Shown here piece after piece: positions 9,269 to 35,609 of a DNA stretch of 39,865 nt. The DNA comes from Patescibacteria group bacterium (lineage in GTDB: Bacteria > Patescibacteriota > Patescibacteriia > Buchananbacterales > UBA6539). A program made the translations under genes and the position numbers. The stretch spans positions 1 through 39,865 of the forward strand of contig JAQTYZ010000001.1 of the NCBI GenBank assembly GCA_028688055.1, given 5' to 3'. The notes under the pieces were generated by a model. The model saw nothing but the letters and a program-made list of their open reading frames with translations, ran no database searches and was not told the origin of the DNA. How positions within the stretch are numbered: position 1 is the stretch's first letter; each line of letters opens with the position of its first letter.

Positions 9269-9352
9269 ATGAAAAAGACTTTCACCAACAATATCATTAT
9301 TGGCATTATCATTATTAGCCAGCCAAGGGGTGGAAGTTTCTTGAGTAGTTAA
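9269..9352 (+). CDS. Ile-codon leader peptide of the cimA attenuator
   Basis: A 27-codon ORF, too short for usual gene calling. Residues 9-16 read IIIGIIII: seven Ile codons (ATT and ATC) around one Gly. The tail SQPRGGSFLSS follows and then TAA. Its translation would stall when Ile-tRNA is scarce. It has no Shine-Dalgarno site and starts almost at the predicted transcript end, so initiation is probably leaderless. The downstream enzyme, citramalate synthase, commits pyruvate to isoleucine, so control codon and product agree. The tail is shared with the Leu leader at 12109. Confidence 0.88.
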   Translation: MKKTFTNNIIIGIIIISQPRGGSFLSS

Positions 9353-9402
9353 AAAGCTAAGTCAGCCGATTAAAGAAACTCCGCCCTGGCGGAGCTTTTT
9401 TG
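9335..9402 (+). terminator. Attenuator of cimA: terminator with competing antiterminator
   Basis: Terminator: CTCCGC (9379-9384), loop CCTG, GCGGAG (9389-9394), then C and six T. Antiterminator: AGTTTCTT (9335-9342), inside the last codons of the leader, pairs perfectly with AAGAAACT (9373-9380). It can be extended by GG (9332-9333) on CC (9381-9382) past one bulged A. The two helices share 9379-9382, so they exclude each other. A ribosome stalled on the Ile codons leaves 9335-9342 free and favours read-through. Confidence 0.85.
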
Positions 9403-11191: not shown

Positions 11192-11220
11192 TTGACACTG
11201 CTATAATTTGGCGATAAGCT
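11192..11220 (+). promoter_or_regulatory. Promoter of the Val leader unit
   Basis: TTGACA (11192-11197), 17-base spacer, TAAGCT (11215-11220), which puts the start at about the leader ATG. A perfect TATAAT lies at 11202-11207 inside the spacer; if that is the -10 box the 5' UTR would be about 13 bases. Confidence 0.6.
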
Positions 11221-11226
11221 AAGAAT

Positions 11227-11283
11227 ATGAAATCTATTGCCTTAAACGTCTTGGTCAACGTCGTCGTACTAGTCTCGGACTAG
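11227..11283 (+). CDS. Val-codon leader peptide
   Basis: An 18-codon ORF ending in TAG. Residues 8-16 read VLVNVVVLV: six Val codons (mostly GTC) with two Leu and one Asn. It sits directly behind its promoter without a Shine-Dalgarno site. TTAAACG inside it (11242-11248) can pair with CGTTTAA (11299-11305) beyond the stop, a possible extra pause or anti-antiterminator helix. The genes it would control are two small unknown ORFs. Confidence 0.82.
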   Translation: MKSIALNVLVNVVVLVSD

Positions 11284-11346
11284 GTGATTTCGTTTGGGCG
11301 TTTAAAGTAATAGAAATAACCTAGTCTCGCCAGGACTAGTTTTTTG
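11278..11346 (+). terminator. Attenuator of the Val leader unit
   Basis: Terminator: CTAGTC (11321-11326), 7-base loop, GACTAG (11334-11339), six T, G, TTT. Antiterminator: GACTAGGT (11278-11285), which covers the leader stop codon, pairs perfectly with ACCTAGTC (11319-11326). After one mismatch ATTTC (11287-11291) pairs with GAAAT (11313-11317). The 13-bp antiterminator uses the whole terminator 5' arm. Confidence 0.85.
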
Positions 11347-11382
11347 TTTGGGTTCTTTAACATTAATGGAGGGTCATCGGTA

Positions 11383-11658
11383 ATGTCAGCCATCAAGCCA
11401 ATTATTAGCTATAAAATGCCGGCGGTCGGGGGAAGGGTTTTTCACTTTCGGACCGAAATTAGGGTAACGACCGACGGTCAACTTCAGGTTGGCGACAAGA
11501 AGGATGCCAAGTGCGTCGAGTTCAGCCGTTCGTACGGTTGTGGCGCGTCGGCCAATTGTTTTGCCGTTAAGAGTGGTGATCGGATCAAGGTTTTTGAGGG
11601 ACCAACCTTCGGTCAGGGAATGATTTCCCGGACTGAAGTTTTAGCCGCTTGTTGCTAA
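11383..11658 (+). CDS. Unknown 91-residue Cys-containing protein behind the Val leader
   Basis: I do not recognise this protein. It starts at ATG 11383 (GGAGG 9 bases upstream); the frame is open further up to TTG 11344, which lies inside the terminator tail and is unlikely. The protein is soluble, predicted beta-rich (FHFRTEIRVTTDGQLQVG), with cysteines in KCVEF, YGCGASANC and a final AACC. The CGASANC pair and terminal CC could bind metal or form disulfides. It is the first gene of a two-gene unit under a Val-codon attenuator, which suggests a role linked to valine supply or use; that is inference only. Codon use is GC-rich like the rest of the island. Confidence 0.7.
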   Translation: MSAIKPIISYKMPAVGGRVFHFRTEIRVTTDGQLQVGDKKDAKCVEFSRSYGCGASANCFAVKSGDRIKVFEGPTFGQGMISRTEVLAACC

Positions 11659-11674
11659 TTGGAAAGGGGGAGAT

Positions 11675-11992
11675 ATGGTAGAGTTTGCCGGATGTTGTCT
11701 GGTATCAAACAGTCGCGCGCCGCAGTCGACCGTGTCGGAAAAGGAAAACAATCTGATTTTACTTAGGCGGGTGTTAGCCGATTACACACTTGAGCTGGAG
11801 AGATTGCGGAGCCGACTGGAAAAAGTTTCAGCTGACAGTGATATCCAAACCACGCGCCGACGCACCAGGTTTGAATTGCTGCGTCGCCGTTGTGCGCCGC
11901 GCGTCATTAATCTACTCCAGACTCGGCATCACCAAGACGTGGAAGATGAGTTGAAAGCTAGATTGCTCGCGCTTGGAGTTGATGGCCTTTAA
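11675..11992 (+). CDS. Unknown 105-residue coiled-coil protein behind the Val leader
   Basis: It begins at ATG 11675 behind GGGGGAG and lies 16 bases after the preceding gene, so they form one unit. The N-terminus has a CC pair (FAGCCLV). Residues 20-75 are a strongly charged Leu-heptad helix (LILLRRVLADYTLELERLRSRLEKV), then a very Arg-rich stretch (TTRRRTRFELLRRRC) that could touch nucleic acid, then a second helix. No family is recognised. The paired small Cys protein and coiled-coil protein may form a complex; this is a guess. A terminator follows. Confidence 0.68.
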   Translation: MVEFAGCCLVSNSRAPQSTVSEKENNLILLRRVLADYTLELERLRSRLEKVSADSDIQTTRRRTRFELLRRRCAPRVINLLQTRHHQDVEDELKARLLALGVDGL

Positions 11993-12108: not shown

Positions 12109-12198
12109 ATGAAACTTTTCCATTCACAATTAAACGGTCTATTATTAGGTTTGTTGTTGTTGAGCCAGCCAGTGGGTGGAAGGTTTACTAGTGTCTAG
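12109..12198 (+). CDS. Leu-codon leader peptide of the leuA attenuator
   Basis: A 29-codon ORF with LLLGLLLL at residues 11-18: seven Leu codons (TTG, TTA, CTA) around one Gly, the same architecture as the Ile leader. The tail SQPVGGRFTSV matches the Ile leader tail SQPRGGSFLSS, and the DNA AGCCAGCCA is identical in both. It sits upstream of leuA, so control codon and pathway product agree. It has no Shine-Dalgarno site and starts at the transcript end. Confidence 0.9.
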   Translation: MKLFHSQLNGLLLGLLLLSQPVGGRFTSV

Positions 12199-12257
12199 CT
12201 AATAAGGTAACAGGTAAACATCAGTCAGTCTTCCACCGTCTGGAAGGCTGTTTTGTT
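12175..12257 (+). terminator. Attenuator of the leuA unit
   Basis: Terminator: CAGTCTTCCA (12226-12235), loop CCGTC, TGGAAGGCTG (12241-12250; one T-G pair), then TTTTGTTT. Antiterminator: GGTGGAAG (12175-12182), in the leader codons for VGGR, pairs perfectly with CTTCCACC (12230-12237). The overlap with the terminator 5' arm makes them exclusive. GTTTAC (12184-12189) and GTAAAC (12214-12219) may form a third helix. Confidence 0.85.
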
Positions 12258-12312: not shown

Positions 12313-12474
12313 ATGGGAAAATTATTATTGATACCAGTTTTCTTTGCTGCCCTTATCGTCTGGATTTATTGCGAAATAAGGGAGGCGCCATTGGAATGTA
12401 TCTCGTGTGGTTGGCTCATTGAAGCCGGTAAAACGATTTGTCCAAAATGTGGTCAGAAGCATCTGGAATCTTAG
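12313..12474 (+). CDS. 53-residue membrane-anchored zinc-ribbon protein
   Basis: A short gene between the Leu attenuator and leuA. It starts at ATG 12313 behind GGAGAAG. Residues 3-19 are one hydrophobic segment (LLLIPVFFAALIVWIYC), followed by two CxxC knuckles, CISC and CPKC, separated by 13 residues. That is a single-knuckle-pair zinc ribbon at the cytoplasmic membrane. Its stop is 13 bases before leuA, so they are co-transcribed under the Leu leader. Small anchored zinc ribbons of this kind have no general assigned function; a link to leucine is inferred only from position. Confidence 0.75.
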   Translation: MGKLLLIPVFFAALIVWIYCEIREAPLECISCGWLIEAGKTICPKCGQKHLES

Positions 12475-12487
12475 AAAGGAGCGAGGC

Positions 12488-14023
12488 ATGAGTAAAGTTC
12501 AGATTTTTGACACGACGCTTCGGGATGGAGAGCAATGTCCTGGAGGCAGTATGACGCTCAGTGAAAAGCTGAGAGTAGCAGAAAGGTTGGCGTTGCTGAA
12601 CGTCGACGTGATTGAGGCTGGCTTTCCGGCCTCGAGTGTCGGCGATTTTGAGTCGGTAGCTAAAATCGCCAGGCAAATTCACGGACCAATAATCTGCGGC
12701 TTGGCTCGGACGATCGATGTTGACATTGATCGCTGCTGGGAAGCCGTAAGGCATTCGTCGCGTCCGCGCGTTCACACCTTCATTGCGACTTCCGATCTTC
12801 ACATCACTGAAAAGTTGCGTATGACCCGTGAGAGCGTAGTTGTCGCCGCGGTTCGTGCCGTTGCGCGTGCCAAAGCATATGGCGCGGAAGTCGAGTTCAG
12901 TCTCGAAGACGCTACGCGGACAGATTACGACTATATGTGTCTGGTGATTGAAGCCGTTATCAACGCCGGGGCAACAATCGTCAATATTCCCGACACGGTT
13001 GGGTATGCCGATCCTTGGTCGTACGGCGATCGGATCGCGCACATTTTTGCCAACGTCCCGAATATTGGTGAGACCGTTTTTAGTGCCCACTGCCATAATG
13101 ACCTTGGTCAGGCAGTTGCTAATTCGCTGGCCGCAATCCACTTTGGCGCTCGGCAGGTTGAATGCACAATTAACGGTATCGGCGAGCGAGCGGGCAATAC
13201 GGCGCTTGAGGAATTGGTTATGAGCATTAAAACTCAGCCGTTCTTTTCGGGACGATTTTCAACCGGTATCGAGACCAAACATCTCTACGGAGCCAGTCGC
13301 TTGGTGGTCCAAGTTACCGATCTGCCAGTGCAGTCGCACAAGGCGGTTGTCGGGCGCAATGCCTTCGCGCATGAAGCCGGTATTCATCAGGCTGGTATGA
13401 TTGCCAATCGGCAAACGTACGAAATCATGAATCCGGAAGATGTCGGTTGGCAGGGTGAAGGCTTAGTGCTCGGTAAGCATTCCGGTCGCAGGGCTTTTGC
13501 GGTTCGTCTAGCTGAGCTTGGCATTAAGCTCGACGATCAAGAATTTAAGGCGGCCTTCGATGCCATGAAAGCTCTGGCCGACGAACGCAAGAGCGTTTAT
13601 GCCAGTGACTTGGTGGCGATTGCTCGCGATCATGGTTTTACCGGCATACCGGAAACTTTCCGACTCGAAGCGATGACAGTGGTGAGTTCAACTCACACCA
13701 CCCCGATGGCGACAATTAAAATCGCGGTTAATGGGAAAACCGTTGACTGCGGTACGCTTGGTGTCGGTCCGGTTGACGCGGTTTATAATGCCATCTTCCA
13801 GGCAACTGGTTTGTCGGCTAAGCTTGTTTCATTCGGTTTGCGAGCGACCGCCGAAGGAACAGATTCGCCAGCCGAAGTGCAGGTGAAAATTGGCGAGAAT
13901 GGTCATTCGGTCGTCGGGATTGCCGGCGATGACGATGTCGTTAAGGCGTCGGTCAATGCTCTCTTGGATGCGATGAATCGCCTTGAAGCGATTAAGGAGG
14001 CGGAAGCAGAAACTTCCAAGTAA
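12488..14023 (+). CDS. leuA: 2-Isopropylmalate synthase
   Basis: It catalyses the first committed step of leucine synthesis (2-oxoisovalerate plus acetyl-CoA). From ATG 12488, with AGGAG 8 bases upstream, it has 511 residues, the usual length. Motifs in order are FDTTLRDGEQCPGG (residues 7-20), VIEAGFPASS, the metal ligands SAHCHND (H201, H203), NGIGERAGNTALEE, FAHEAGIHQ and LGKHSGR. A C-terminal allosteric domain begins near residue 390. The protein can therefore also be inhibited by leucine. The frame is open upstream through the zinc-ribbon gene, but that N-terminal extension is not used by the family. leuB, leuC and leuD are not in the window. Confidence 0.95.
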   Translation: MSKVQIFDTTLRDGEQCPGGSMTLSEKLRVAERLALLNVDVIEAGFPASSVGDFESVAKIARQIHGPIICGLARTIDVDIDRCWEAVRHSSRPRVHTFIATSDLHITEKLRMTRESVVVAAVRAVARAKAYGAEVEFSLEDATRTDYDYMCLVIEAVINAGATIVNIPDTVGYADPWSYGDRIAHIFANVPNIGETVFSAHCHNDLGQAVANSLAAIHFGARQVECTINGIGERAGNTALEELVMSIKTQPFFSGRFSTGIETKHLYGASRLVVQVTDLPVQSHKAVVGRNAFAHEAGIHQAGMIANRQTYEIMNPEDVGWQGEGLVLGKHSGRRAFAVRLAELGIKLDDQEFKAAFDAMKALADERKSVYASDLVAIARDHGFTGIPETFRLEAMTVVSSTHTTPMATIKIAVNGKTVDCGTLGVGPVDAVYNAIFQATGLSAKLVSFGLRATAEGTDSPAEVQVKIGENGHSVVGIAGDDDVVKASVNALLDAMNRLEAIKEAEAETSK

Positions 14024-14120: not shown

Positions 14121-14171
14121 ATGAGTAAACAGCGAAATTCAATTTTGCCCTTACCACCAACCTCCGTCTAG
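14121..14171 (+). CDS. Pro/Leu-codon leader peptide
   Basis: A 16-codon ORF ending in TAG. Residues 8-13 are ILPLPP, with three Pro codons (CCC, CCA, CCA) and two Leu codons. The Pro density is the most likely signal, but the control amino acid is less clear than in the other four leaders. It precedes a tRNA-like gene rather than a protein gene. Confidence 0.65.
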   Translation: MSKQRNSILPLPPTSV

Positions 14172-14227
14172 GAAGTTGGGTCGTTTGCTTTCGTTAAATT
14201 AGTAGCCCAGCTTCCGGGCTATTTTTT
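14171..14227 (+). terminator. Attenuator ahead of the tRNA-like gene
   Basis: Terminator: TAGCCC (14203-14208), 7-base loop, GGGCTA (14216-14221), six T, G, TTT. Antiterminator: GGAAGTTGGG (14171-14180), starting on the last base of the leader stop, pairs over 10 bases with CCCAGCTTCC (14206-14215; one T-G pair). It takes the terminator 5' arm and loop. Confidence 0.82.
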
Positions 14228-14240
14228 GTTTGTTTATTTT

Positions 14241-14320
14241 CGGGGCGATAGCTTAAGCTGGTAGAGCGTCCTGACGTCAAGTCGGGAAGGTCGTAGGTTC
14301 AATTCCTACCGCCGCGACCA
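14241..14320 (+). tRNA. Noncanonical tRNA-like gene, identity undetermined
   Basis: 80 bases ending in an encoded CCA. Acceptor CGGGGCG pairs with CGCCGCG with one G-G mismatch at pair 3-70; A is the discriminator. The D arm is GCTT/GAGC with a normal GG-containing loop; the T arm is GTAGG/CCTAC with loop TTCAATT. Odd points: three bases instead of two between acceptor and D stem, and a 6-bp anticodon stem (TCCTGA/TCGGGA) with loop CGTCAAG. In that fold position 33 is G instead of T and the central triplet is TCA. C1-G72 and A73 are proline-tRNA features, shared with tRNA-Pro at 17900. It could be a decayed tRNA, a divergent functional one, or a tRNA mimic. It lies behind an attenuator. Confidence 0.5.
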
Positions 14321-14390
14321 TTTGTTCTTTATTTGGGGCCGTCTAAAATGGCTTTACTTTGGGAGAATTTATGCCACCCCGACCAATCTT

Positions 14391-14469: not shown

Positions 14470-14532
14470 ATGAAAGCACATATTTTAAGCAAATCATTTT
14501 TCGGCTTTTACTTTACTAACCCAGTAGGTTAG
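14470..14532 (+). CDS. Phe-codon leader peptide of the DAHP synthase unit
   Basis: A 20-codon ORF. Residues 10-15 read FFGFYF, four Phe codons plus Tyr, then TNPVG and TAG. It is followed by an unknown gene and DAHP synthase, the entry enzyme of aromatic amino acid synthesis, so the control codons match the pathway. Four of the other leaders' traits recur: promoter adjacent, no Shine-Dalgarno site, stop codon inside the antiterminator arm, terminator next. An ATG at 14459 gives only a four-residue ORF that overlaps this start. Confidence 0.88.
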   Translation: MKAHILSKSFFGFYFTNPVG

Positions 14533-14591
14533 TTTGCTTAGGATATTACCCAGATCACAATCAAGCAACTGACCTACGGGGTCAGTTTTTT
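14524..14591 (+). terminator. Attenuator of the Phe leader unit
   Basis: Terminator: AACTGACC (14567-14574), loop TACGG, GGTCAGTT (14580-14587), T-run, G, TTT. Antiterminator: GTAGGTTAGTTTGCTT (14524-14539), spanning the leader stop, pairs with AAGCAACTGACCTAC (14563-14577). That is 15 pairs with one T-G and one bulged T, and it consumes the whole terminator 5' arm. This is the longest antiterminator of the five. Confidence 0.9.
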
Positions 14592-14730: not shown

Positions 14731-15606
14731 ATGAGTGTTGGCAGAAATAGTGTTGATCGTTTTATCCCAGGCGTGGATTTACCGACCGGTCGTGCCCTTG
14801 ATGAATGCCGGCGAGCTGTCCTTGAGATTATGATGGTGTGGCCGGATCAGGAAATCAGTCCTGAAGCAATCTTTGCGCGCGCGTCAGGATTTTTACACAC
14901 TGACGGTCGTGACGGCGAATTGGCTCGGCATACTTTAGAAAGTCTGATCGCTCAGTGTCGGAACTATCCGACGATTACTAGGGGGCAGACTTTCTGGACG
15001 ATCGTGAAGAGCCTCTTCAAACCTTACGAAGCGTTGGTTCTGTACCTTGGCCAGTGTTCCAGTCTGTCATTAAACAGGGAGCGCCGCGCGGTTGTCAGCC
15101 ATCTTCGGGCAGTTGGTTACACGCTGTCCGACATTAAGCAGGCTGACATAGAGGCAAGGTTGGGAATGAACGACGACGATTTTGTCGCTCGGTTGAGACA
15201 ATGTCTTGGGGCAATTCTCGGAATGTTGCCGGATGTCGAAACACAACGCAACGGTCTGGAGGGGTTAGTTGCGGCGTCATACAACTTCGGCGGACGCTTT
15301 GAAGAAGCTAATGGTATCATTGGCGAGTTAATGTCCGTGATCCCAATTCATTTTGGCGTTTTCCGTCAGCCGTTGTTCTGGGACATTCTTCGGGTCTATT
15401 TTACCGACGAAGAAGCGGTGAGTCTTTATCTCATTCGTTTTCCCAATGCCGCCACCCGTAAGCAAATCGCTTGTATTCGTTGCTACCTGGTTGAGACAGT
15501 CGGATTTAATCCTGAACTAGTCGACGATCTTATCAAGGATCGTGACTTTCAGCTTGTTCCAAATCAGGTTTCCCGACCCAACAAAAAATCGCGCCGGACT
15601 TTTTAG
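14731..15606 (+). CDS. Unknown 291-residue helical protein with internal duplication
   Basis: It has an ideal start (AAGGAGG 7 bases before the ATG). The protein is soluble and mostly helical and I do not recognise it. Two similar units can be aligned: FWTIVKSLFKPYEALVLYLG (near residue 90) with FWDILRVYFTDEEAVSLYLI (near residue 213). Both are followed by a basic stretch, then VVSHLRAVGYTLSDIKQADI and IRCYLVETVGFNPELVDDLI. So it probably arose by tandem duplication of a unit of about 120 residues. The C-terminus is basic (RPNKKSRRTF). It shares the Phe attenuator with DAHP synthase (31-base gap), so a role in aromatic synthesis or its control is plausible but unproven. Confidence 0.75.
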   Translation: MSVGRNSVDRFIPGVDLPTGRALDECRRAVLEIMMVWPDQEISPEAIFARASGFLHTDGRDGELARHTLESLIAQCRNYPTITRGQTFWTIVKSLFKPYEALVLYLGQCSSLSLNRERRAVVSHLRAVGYTLSDIKQADIEARLGMNDDDFVARLRQCLGAILGMLPDVETQRNGLEGLVAASYNFGGRFEEANGIIGELMSVIPIHFGVFRQPLFWDILRVYFTDEEAVSLYLIRFPNAATRKQIACIRCYLVETVGFNPELVDDLIKDRDFQLVPNQVSRPNKKSRRTF

Positions 15607-34559: not shown

Positions 34560-35111
34560 ATGGATAAACCAAACGATAACAGAGCTAAATTCAATAATCG
34601 GAGAGGTGAATCATCTCGTCAGACTGAAAGAGAATTTGATCAGGCTATTATTGATATTGCCCGCGTTACTCGAGTTATGGCTGGGGGAAAGCGAATGAGA
34701 TTTCGCGCTTGTGTCGTGATTGGTGACCATAATGGTCGGGTTGGAAACGCGGTTGGCAAGGGGGCTGATGTCACCTTGGCCATTAACAAGGCGGTCAATA
34801 AGGCCAAAAAACACATGATTAATGTACCTATCGTTGATGAAACCATTCCTCATCGCGTTGACGTTAAAGTTGGTGCTGCTAAATTATTGATTAAGCCAGC
34901 TCCCATTGGAACGGGAATTATTGCTGGTGGTGCGGTTCGAACGGTCTTGGATTTGGCTGGTGTTTCTAATGTTGTCGCTAAAATTTTAGGTTCAAAAAAT
35001 AAGATTAATAATGTTAACGCAACGATCAAAGCTTTGAAGAGTTTAAAAAGAGTTGAGTCAAAAGCTAAAAAAGCGGATAAGCCAGCTGAAAAGAAAGCTG
35101 ACGCTAAATAA
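34560..35111 (+). CDS. rpsE: Ribosomal protein uS5
   Basis: 30S protein at the mRNA entry and accuracy centre. The S5 domain is complete (RVTRVMAGGKRMRFRACVVIGDHNGRVG, RTVLDLAGVSNVVAKILGS). 183 residues; both ends carry charged extensions, the last 20 being Lys/Ala-rich. Normally rpmD (uL30) would follow; here rplO starts 12 bases later. Confidence 0.97.
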   Translation: MDKPNDNRAKFNNRRGESSRQTEREFDQAIIDIARVTRVMAGGKRMRFRACVVIGDHNGRVGNAVGKGADVTLAINKAVNKAKKHMINVPIVDETIPHRVDVKVGAAKLLIKPAPIGTGIIAGGAVRTVLDLAGVSNVVAKILGSKNKINNVNATIKALKSLKRVESKAKKADKPAEKKADAK

Positions 35112-35123
35112 GATTTTTCAATT

Positions 35124-35609
35124 ATGTCAGAATTAAATTTGAGTAATTTGCAGATTAATAAAGGCTCCCATAAGCGAGGAAAACGGGTGGGACGTGGTGA
35201 TGCGTCTGGACGTGGTTCTTACAGTGGTCGTGGATTAAAAGGACAGAAGGCTCGAAGCGGCGGTAAGAGCGGCTTGCGCCGTCGTGCTTTAAAATTATTA
35301 TTGAGGAGCAAACCTAAATTAGGTGGTTTTAAGAGTTTGAATAAAAAAATGACAGCGGTGAATGTTGAACTATTGGATCGATATTTCAATGATGGCGAAT
35401 TAGTTAACGCTAAAAAATTAATTTACAAAAAATTAATTGAAAATGCCGATGGCGGATTGAAGATTCTAGGCAACGGCAAGCTTAACAAAAAATTAAATGT
35501 CACCGCCGATGGTTTTTCACAATCAGCTCAAAAGGCTATCTTGGAAGCCGGCGGACAAGTAAATTTGTTGGTGCCGGTCAAAATCAACTCAAAAAAATCA
35601 GCTAAATAA
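35124..35609 (+). CDS. rplO: Ribosomal protein uL15
   Basis: 50S protein with the basic N-terminal arm KRGKRVGRGDASGRGSYSGRGLKGQKARSGG and the C-terminal globular part ILEAGGQVNLL. 161 residues. It follows rpsE directly, with no uL30 gene between. Confidence 0.96.
   Translation: MSELNLSNLQINKGSHKRGKRVGRGDASGRGSYSGRGLKGQKARSGGKSGLRRRALKLLLRSKPKLGGFKSLNKKMTAVNVELLDRYFNDGELVNAKKLIYKKLIENADGGLKILGNGKLNKKLNVTADGFSQSAQKAILEAGGQVNLLVPVKINSKKSAK

Follow-up and report, generated by a model that had tools for sequence, protein, structure and literature searches.

In enteric bacteria, the branched-chain amino acid operons ilvB, ilvGMEDA and leuABCD have leaders that act as ribosome-mediated attenuators, and attenuation normally tunes a pathway that is owned by the cell. 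Ribosome-mediated attenuators are also described for the ilvB leaders of Actinobacteria (PMC1262725, PMC10272879), and a Leu-rich attenuator for S. aureus (PMC5794164). Such systems share with the locus presented here a short ORF, enriched in the regulatory codon, as the leader, antiterminator and terminator hairpins that alternate with each other, and a switch that is set by the position of the ribosome. A search of the open-access literature yielded no report on attenuators in the bacterial group to which our locus belongs. This locus lies in a window of 39,865 nucleotides (i.e., the whole stretch of DNA analysed, contig JAQTYZ010000001.1 of assembly GCA_028688055.1) from a Patescibacteria group bacterium, hereafter G000, whose draft genome of 1.1 Mb is 97.7% complete. 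In its ribosomal operon rpmD is missing between rpsE (which ends at 35111) and rplO (which starts at 35124); together with the small genome, this presumably fits Patescibacteria/CPR.

Two features distinguish the locus from the branched-chain attenuators mentioned above. One of them is that it controls two orphan genes, ORF1 and ORF2, in an organism in which the ilv pathway was not found, and the second is that its leader, with mainly Val as the regulatory residue, is one of five successive leaders. T-boxes and amino-acid riboswitches likewise respond to a shortage of amino acids, upstream of a terminator; however, a translated leader takes their place here, and at the Val unit no T-box or riboswitch of Rfam was matched, the only matches at the gathering threshold being to tRNAs. 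The interpretation that we consider probable is that an attenuator sensing charged tRNA-Val controls a two-gene orphan operon, most likely as part of the starvation response of an auxotroph. The features involved are listed in Table 1.

Table 1. Features of the Val unit and of the neighbouring attenuators (positions are those of the window unless a locus is given).
Feature	Position	Strand	Remarks
Candidate -35 box TTGACA	11192..11197	+	TTGACA also at the aligned position of the second genus; putative
Val leader peptide ORF	11227..11283	+	18 codons, MKSIALNVLVNVVVLVSD then stop; kept in the second genus
Leader hairpin CTAGTC-TCG-GACTAG	11269..11283	+	11269-11274 pairs with 11278-11283 (arm 1:2)
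Antiterminator	11278..11326	+	Arms 11278-11291 with 11313-11326
Intrinsic terminator	11321..11345	+	Stem 11321-11339 (7 bp, loop 5), then T6 tract
ORF1, 91 aa orphan	11383..11658	+	Core motif CVxFSRSxGxGASANC
ORF2, 105 aa orphan	11675..11992	+	Predicted helical hairpin, Arg-rich
Ile attenuator	9269..9394	+	Leader MKKTFTNNIIIGIIIISQPRGGSFLSS then stop; before citramalate-synthase-like gene 9404/9476-11068
Leu attenuator	12109..12250	+	Leader MKLFHSQLNGLLLGLLLLSQPVGGRFTSV then stop; before TM-zinc-ribbon ORF (12313-12474) and 2-isopropylmalate synthase (12488-14023)
Pro attenuator	14121..14223	+	Leader MSKQRNSILPLPPTSV then stop; before tRNA-like sequence(s)
Phe attenuator	14470..14587	+	Leader MKAHILSKSFFGFYFTNPVG then stop; before 291-aa gene without known family and DAHP-synthase-like gene
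Val terminator of G002	L002:1431-1455		

The initial annotation had pointed out a leader with six Val codons in nine positions and an antiterminator of 13 bp that covers its stop codon. Both were recovered, the Val codons in the stretch VLVNVVVLV. The antiterminator is formed by 8+5 base pairs around one mismatch, and spans the TAG stop codon at 11281–11283. Folding indicates that when no ribosome is translating, the leader hairpin sequesters the proximal arm of the antiterminator. The terminator starts 37 nt past the leader stop codon; terminator and antiterminator are mutually exclusive and compete. Upstream, the candidate -10 box appears weak (xATAAG, approx. 15 nt past the -35 box); from its position, the mRNA would start near the leader ATG.

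The behaviour of the switch was simulated by placing a ribosome on each codon and folding the RNA that it leaves free, with footprint edges of +9, +12 and +15. With the +12 footprint, the probability of the terminator in G000 was 0.00 when the A-site codon was any from Ser3 to the fifth Val; it was 0.67, 0.91, 0.79 and 0.33 on the four codons after the fifth Val, and 0.85 with the ribosome at the leader stop codon. The dip to 0.33 falls one codon before the stop, past the last Val codon. For the Val leader of a second genome from the same family and another genus (G002), the probability stayed at 0.00 through the Leu in front of the last Val, was 0.72 on that Val, and reached 0.98 with the ribosome at the stop codon. 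When the neighbouring leaders for Ile, Leu, Pro and Phe were simulated in both genera, the switch likewise fell where the regulatory codons end, or close to it. A scan for leaders with at least six identical residues in 10 codons and a terminator within 60 nt found three in the window (Val, Leu and Ile) versus 0.03 per dinucleotide-shuffled window; a Val leader was present in none of the 30 shuffled windows.

The sequence and structure features that characterize an attenuator were found at this locus, i.e., a cluster of regulatory codons, a terminator, an exclusive antiterminator, and a simulated switch that coincides with the regulatory codons. By its anatomy and thermodynamic simulation the Val switch can be regarded, as close to certainty as sequence evidence goes, as a classical ribosome-mediated attenuator. 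When Val-tRNA is plentiful, the ribosome would reach the leader stop codon and mask 11278–11291, and the terminator would form; when Val is short, the ribosome would stall on the Val codons, the 13-bp antiterminator would form, and ORF1 and ORF2 would be transcribed. The switch rests on sequence, conservation and thermodynamic simulation.

In G002 (L002/L003), the Val leader MKSIARKTVVVNVVVLVRGD, with 7 Val in 9 codons, is also followed by a terminator, an antiterminator (an 11-bp stem plus inner pairs), ORF1 and ORF2. The unit is placed as in G000, between the citramalate-synthase-like gene and the unit formed by the Leu leader and the isopropylmalate synthase gene. The proteins of both genomes are 43% identical for ORF1 and about 26% over aligned columns for ORF2, and identity at codon positions 1, 2 and 3 is 0.51, 0.66 and 0.41 for ORF1, and 0.39, 0.51 and 0.26 for ORF2; since positions 1 and 2 are kept above position 3, both ORFs evolve as coding sequence. 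It had been asked in the initial annotation if the homologues always occur together, follow a Val-rich leader, or sit near ilv genes: in both genomes found, ORF1 and ORF2 stand together behind a Val leader, and in G000 they do not adjoin ilv genes. No homologue with a known unrelated function was encountered, and the relative that carries the genes also carries the leader.

ORF1 was not found in the other 379 genomes of a draw from the class, nor in a 380-genome draw across the phylum, G000 itself apart; the survey thus covered about 700 genomes of the phylum. Two pattern scans of 84,980 species gave no homologue of ORF1, with short peptide patterns that distant relatives can escape, and none was found in viral contigs or plasmids; for ORF2, no homologue was detected in 53 other relatives or in viral contigs. 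Several matches were discarded. One in a viral contig (L089, 38% over 51 aa) is antisense to a phage-like structural gene and was judged to be due to chance. Those of the pattern scan (L067-L070) contain stop codons or lie in an unrelated context, and their number about equals the estimated chance. Matches in the class and phylum draws (G324, G223, G254, G264 and G425) are short or weak, as expected by chance given the number of genomes, and the one in G425 sits within a methyltransferase-like frame. Given that the Val unit is present in only two of the genomes surveyed, its conservation is shallow. This narrow distribution, in a reduced genome, is what would be expected if an inherited attenuator had come by rearrangement to control unrelated, dispensable small genes, as an ordinary leftover. 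We regard this possibility as quite unlikely, in view of a leader, a switch, two genes and an order that are kept across genera despite protein identities as low as those given above, and of a codon-position bias that is typical of selection.

The two proteins have no recognised family, as the initial annotation had stated, and profile and fold searches upheld it: in Pfam, NCBIfam, PHROGs and PADLOC neither ORF1 nor ORF2 gave a match that repeats in the homologue, and PDB likewise gave no match. ORF1 has Cys residues at positions 44, 53, 59, 90 and 91, and its conserved core is accompanied by further Cys at the C-terminus. Structure prediction of each protein, which had also been proposed, was informative for ORF1, whose model is of good confidence (pLDDT 86.5) and shows an all-beta domain followed by a helix at the C-terminus; for ORF2 it gave a helical model of low confidence (pLDDT 63). 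The fold search with ORF1 against PDB and viral structures produced no match below E 0.1, the best ones being insignificant, and that with ORF2 nothing below E 2, from a query model too poor to use. ORF2 contains RRR/RRRC stretches and a conserved R-x-R-C-x-P. An assignment of ORF2 as a PP-loop/TilS protein (E 0.006) fell short of the cut-off and was not repeated in the G002 homologue.

Another aspect that bears on the function of these proteins is the content of amino-acid pathways. Dihydroxyacid dehydratase (DHAD), aconitase/LeuC and chorismate synthase were not found in G000 with models that were positive in 14 of 14 control genomes. Neither an acetolactate-synthase-type TPP enzyme nor a true ketol-acid reductoisomerase (KARI) was found in G000, where the KARI match corresponds to the adenosylhomocysteinase gene of the window. 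G002 also gave a match in the KARI search, and has one acetolactate-synthase-type TPP enzyme, located between superoxide-dismutase-like and aldehyde-dehydrogenase-like genes. The draft is incomplete and thus single missing genes could be gaps; the absence of DHAD, aconitase and chorismate synthase holds in G002 as well. From the enzymes not found, the Val, Leu, Ile and aromatic pathways appear to be broken, and therefore valine biosynthesis is an unlikely role for ORF1 and ORF2. The valine-linked function put forward in the initial annotation remains a fair description; the expectation of valine biosynthesis is not supported, as KARI, DHAD and acetolactate synthase were not found in G000. As a separate observation, G006, of the same family, has a lone ketol-acid reductoisomerase-like gene (L009 1309-2838) with no Val leader upstream, and DHAD was not found in this genome.

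It is very unlikely, in our judgement, that ORF1 and ORF2 contribute to valine synthesis as a component that is missing or of an unusual kind, for instance a regulatory subunit or a substitute enzyme, and are regulated in the way of a normal ilv operon. The enteric ilvB and ilvGMEDA operons are indeed known to be under Val attenuators, and next to the Val unit the Ile and Leu leaders stand before genes from the pathways of their own amino acids (citramalate- and isopropylmalate-synthase-like). Against this, besides the missing enzymes, no ACT-type or other regulatory domain (IlvN/IlvH/IlvM-like) was matched in either protein with Pfam or NCBIfam, and there is no catalytic partner in G000; proteins of 91 and 105 residues gave no match to an enzyme fold; and the Ile and Leu pathways of G000 likewise end after the first enzyme. 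A role in valine uptake or release, for instance as cytoplasmic partners of a transporter, a protease or a peptide-import route, would fit induction by Val starvation in an auxotroph but is rather unlikely; sequence inspection revealed no hydrophobic transmembrane stretch in either protein, there is no homology to indicate it, and no transporter adjoins the genes. In a cell that appears to lack a valine pathway, ORF1 and ORF2 are most likely part of a starvation response of an auxotroph. Our guess, made with low confidence, is that they could be a small beta-domain protein and its helical partner that would influence how valine is supplied or how the cell responds when it is lacking, as a regulator or a scavenging aid rather than a biosynthetic enzyme.

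A point missed by the initial annotation is that the Val unit belongs to a series of five neighbouring attenuators, the majority of them in front of lone enzymes whose pathways were not found. In G000 they follow each other in the order Ile, Val, Leu, Pro and Phe, and the same five are present in the same order in G002, where prephenate-dehydratase-type genes lie behind the Phe leader. In G005, of the same family, a Phe leader comes after the isopropylmalate synthase gene, and behind this leader lie a small related gene and one for a DAHP-synthase-like enzyme. Lone citramalate- or isopropylmalate-synthase-like enzymes under Ile or Leu leaders are widespread in other families of the class, in genomes (e.g., G041, G151, G091 and G108) that mostly lack aconitase/LeuC. 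The Val unit resembles these Ile- and Leu-leader units in its architecture, in being their neighbour in two genera, and in that the downstream pathway is missing in most genomes; the difference is that they encode an enzyme that can be recognised as part of the matching pathway, whereas the Val unit does not. Accordingly placed, ORF1 and ORF2 would fill the Val slot, and shortage of Ile, Leu, Pro or Phe would each induce its own product.

The first-step enzymes of the island have conserved catalytic motifs, as read in their sequences, and the downstream enzymes were not found. This, together with the simulated starvation control of each unit by its own amino acid, and with a Leu leader in G041 (L045 3555-4850) that is followed by a gene of the amino-acid-kinase family and by a LeuA allosteric (dimerisation) domain that stands alone, with no catalytic part, could be accounted for if the island yielded committed intermediates or amino-acid-binding proteins acting on a host; the lone feedback-type enzymes of the Ile, Leu and Phe units and the Val pair would then raise the host output of the missing amino acid. 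We think this unlikely, both export and host being putative and relic genes often being kept in small reduced genomes.

Selection maintains the switches for Val, Ile, Leu and Phe although the rest of the pathways was not found in these cells, and the island suggests an undescribed starvation response in cells that take amino acids from elsewhere. As part of such a response, the Val switch, driving two proteins of no known family, is a testable entry to the sensing of amino-acid shortage in bacteria with very small genomes. An extension of this idea, rather unlikely in our opinion, is a starvation programme of host-dependent bacteria in which each attenuator would induce a product that corresponds to the amino acid that is lacking, and the amino acids would be obtained from a partner. 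Its products would be lone first-step enzymes or allosteric domains, a tRNA-like RNA, and a new two-protein family for valine, ORF1 and ORF2 being the first valine-specific proteins of their kind.

Other elements of the island, and one found elsewhere, deserve mention. In both genera a Pro leader and terminator precede two tRNA-like sequences (14121-14386 in the window; L003 5662-6073), which are degenerate, one of them with an odd anticodon arm; the second, with UGG in its anticodon loop, is truncated in G000 and carries an insertion of approx. 100 nt in G002, where a canonical tRNA-Pro(UGG)-type match is present elsewhere. Control of a tRNA-like RNA by Pro attenuation would be unusual. The small protein encoded behind the Leu leader, ahead of isopropylmalate synthase, combines a single TM helix with a zinc ribbon and is conserved (window 12313-12474; L002 2785-2954). 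From the Phe leader to the DAHP-synthase-like gene, the window contains a gene of two related halves with no known family (14731-15606), and a single-unit relative with 27% identity occupies the same place in G005 (L055 1948-2391). Finally, in G009 a Ser-rich leader-like ORF, MNLKKYLSAQSSWSIICSSSCSSSAFGGRFFSA, is followed by a terminator (L018 2320-2421, minus strand).
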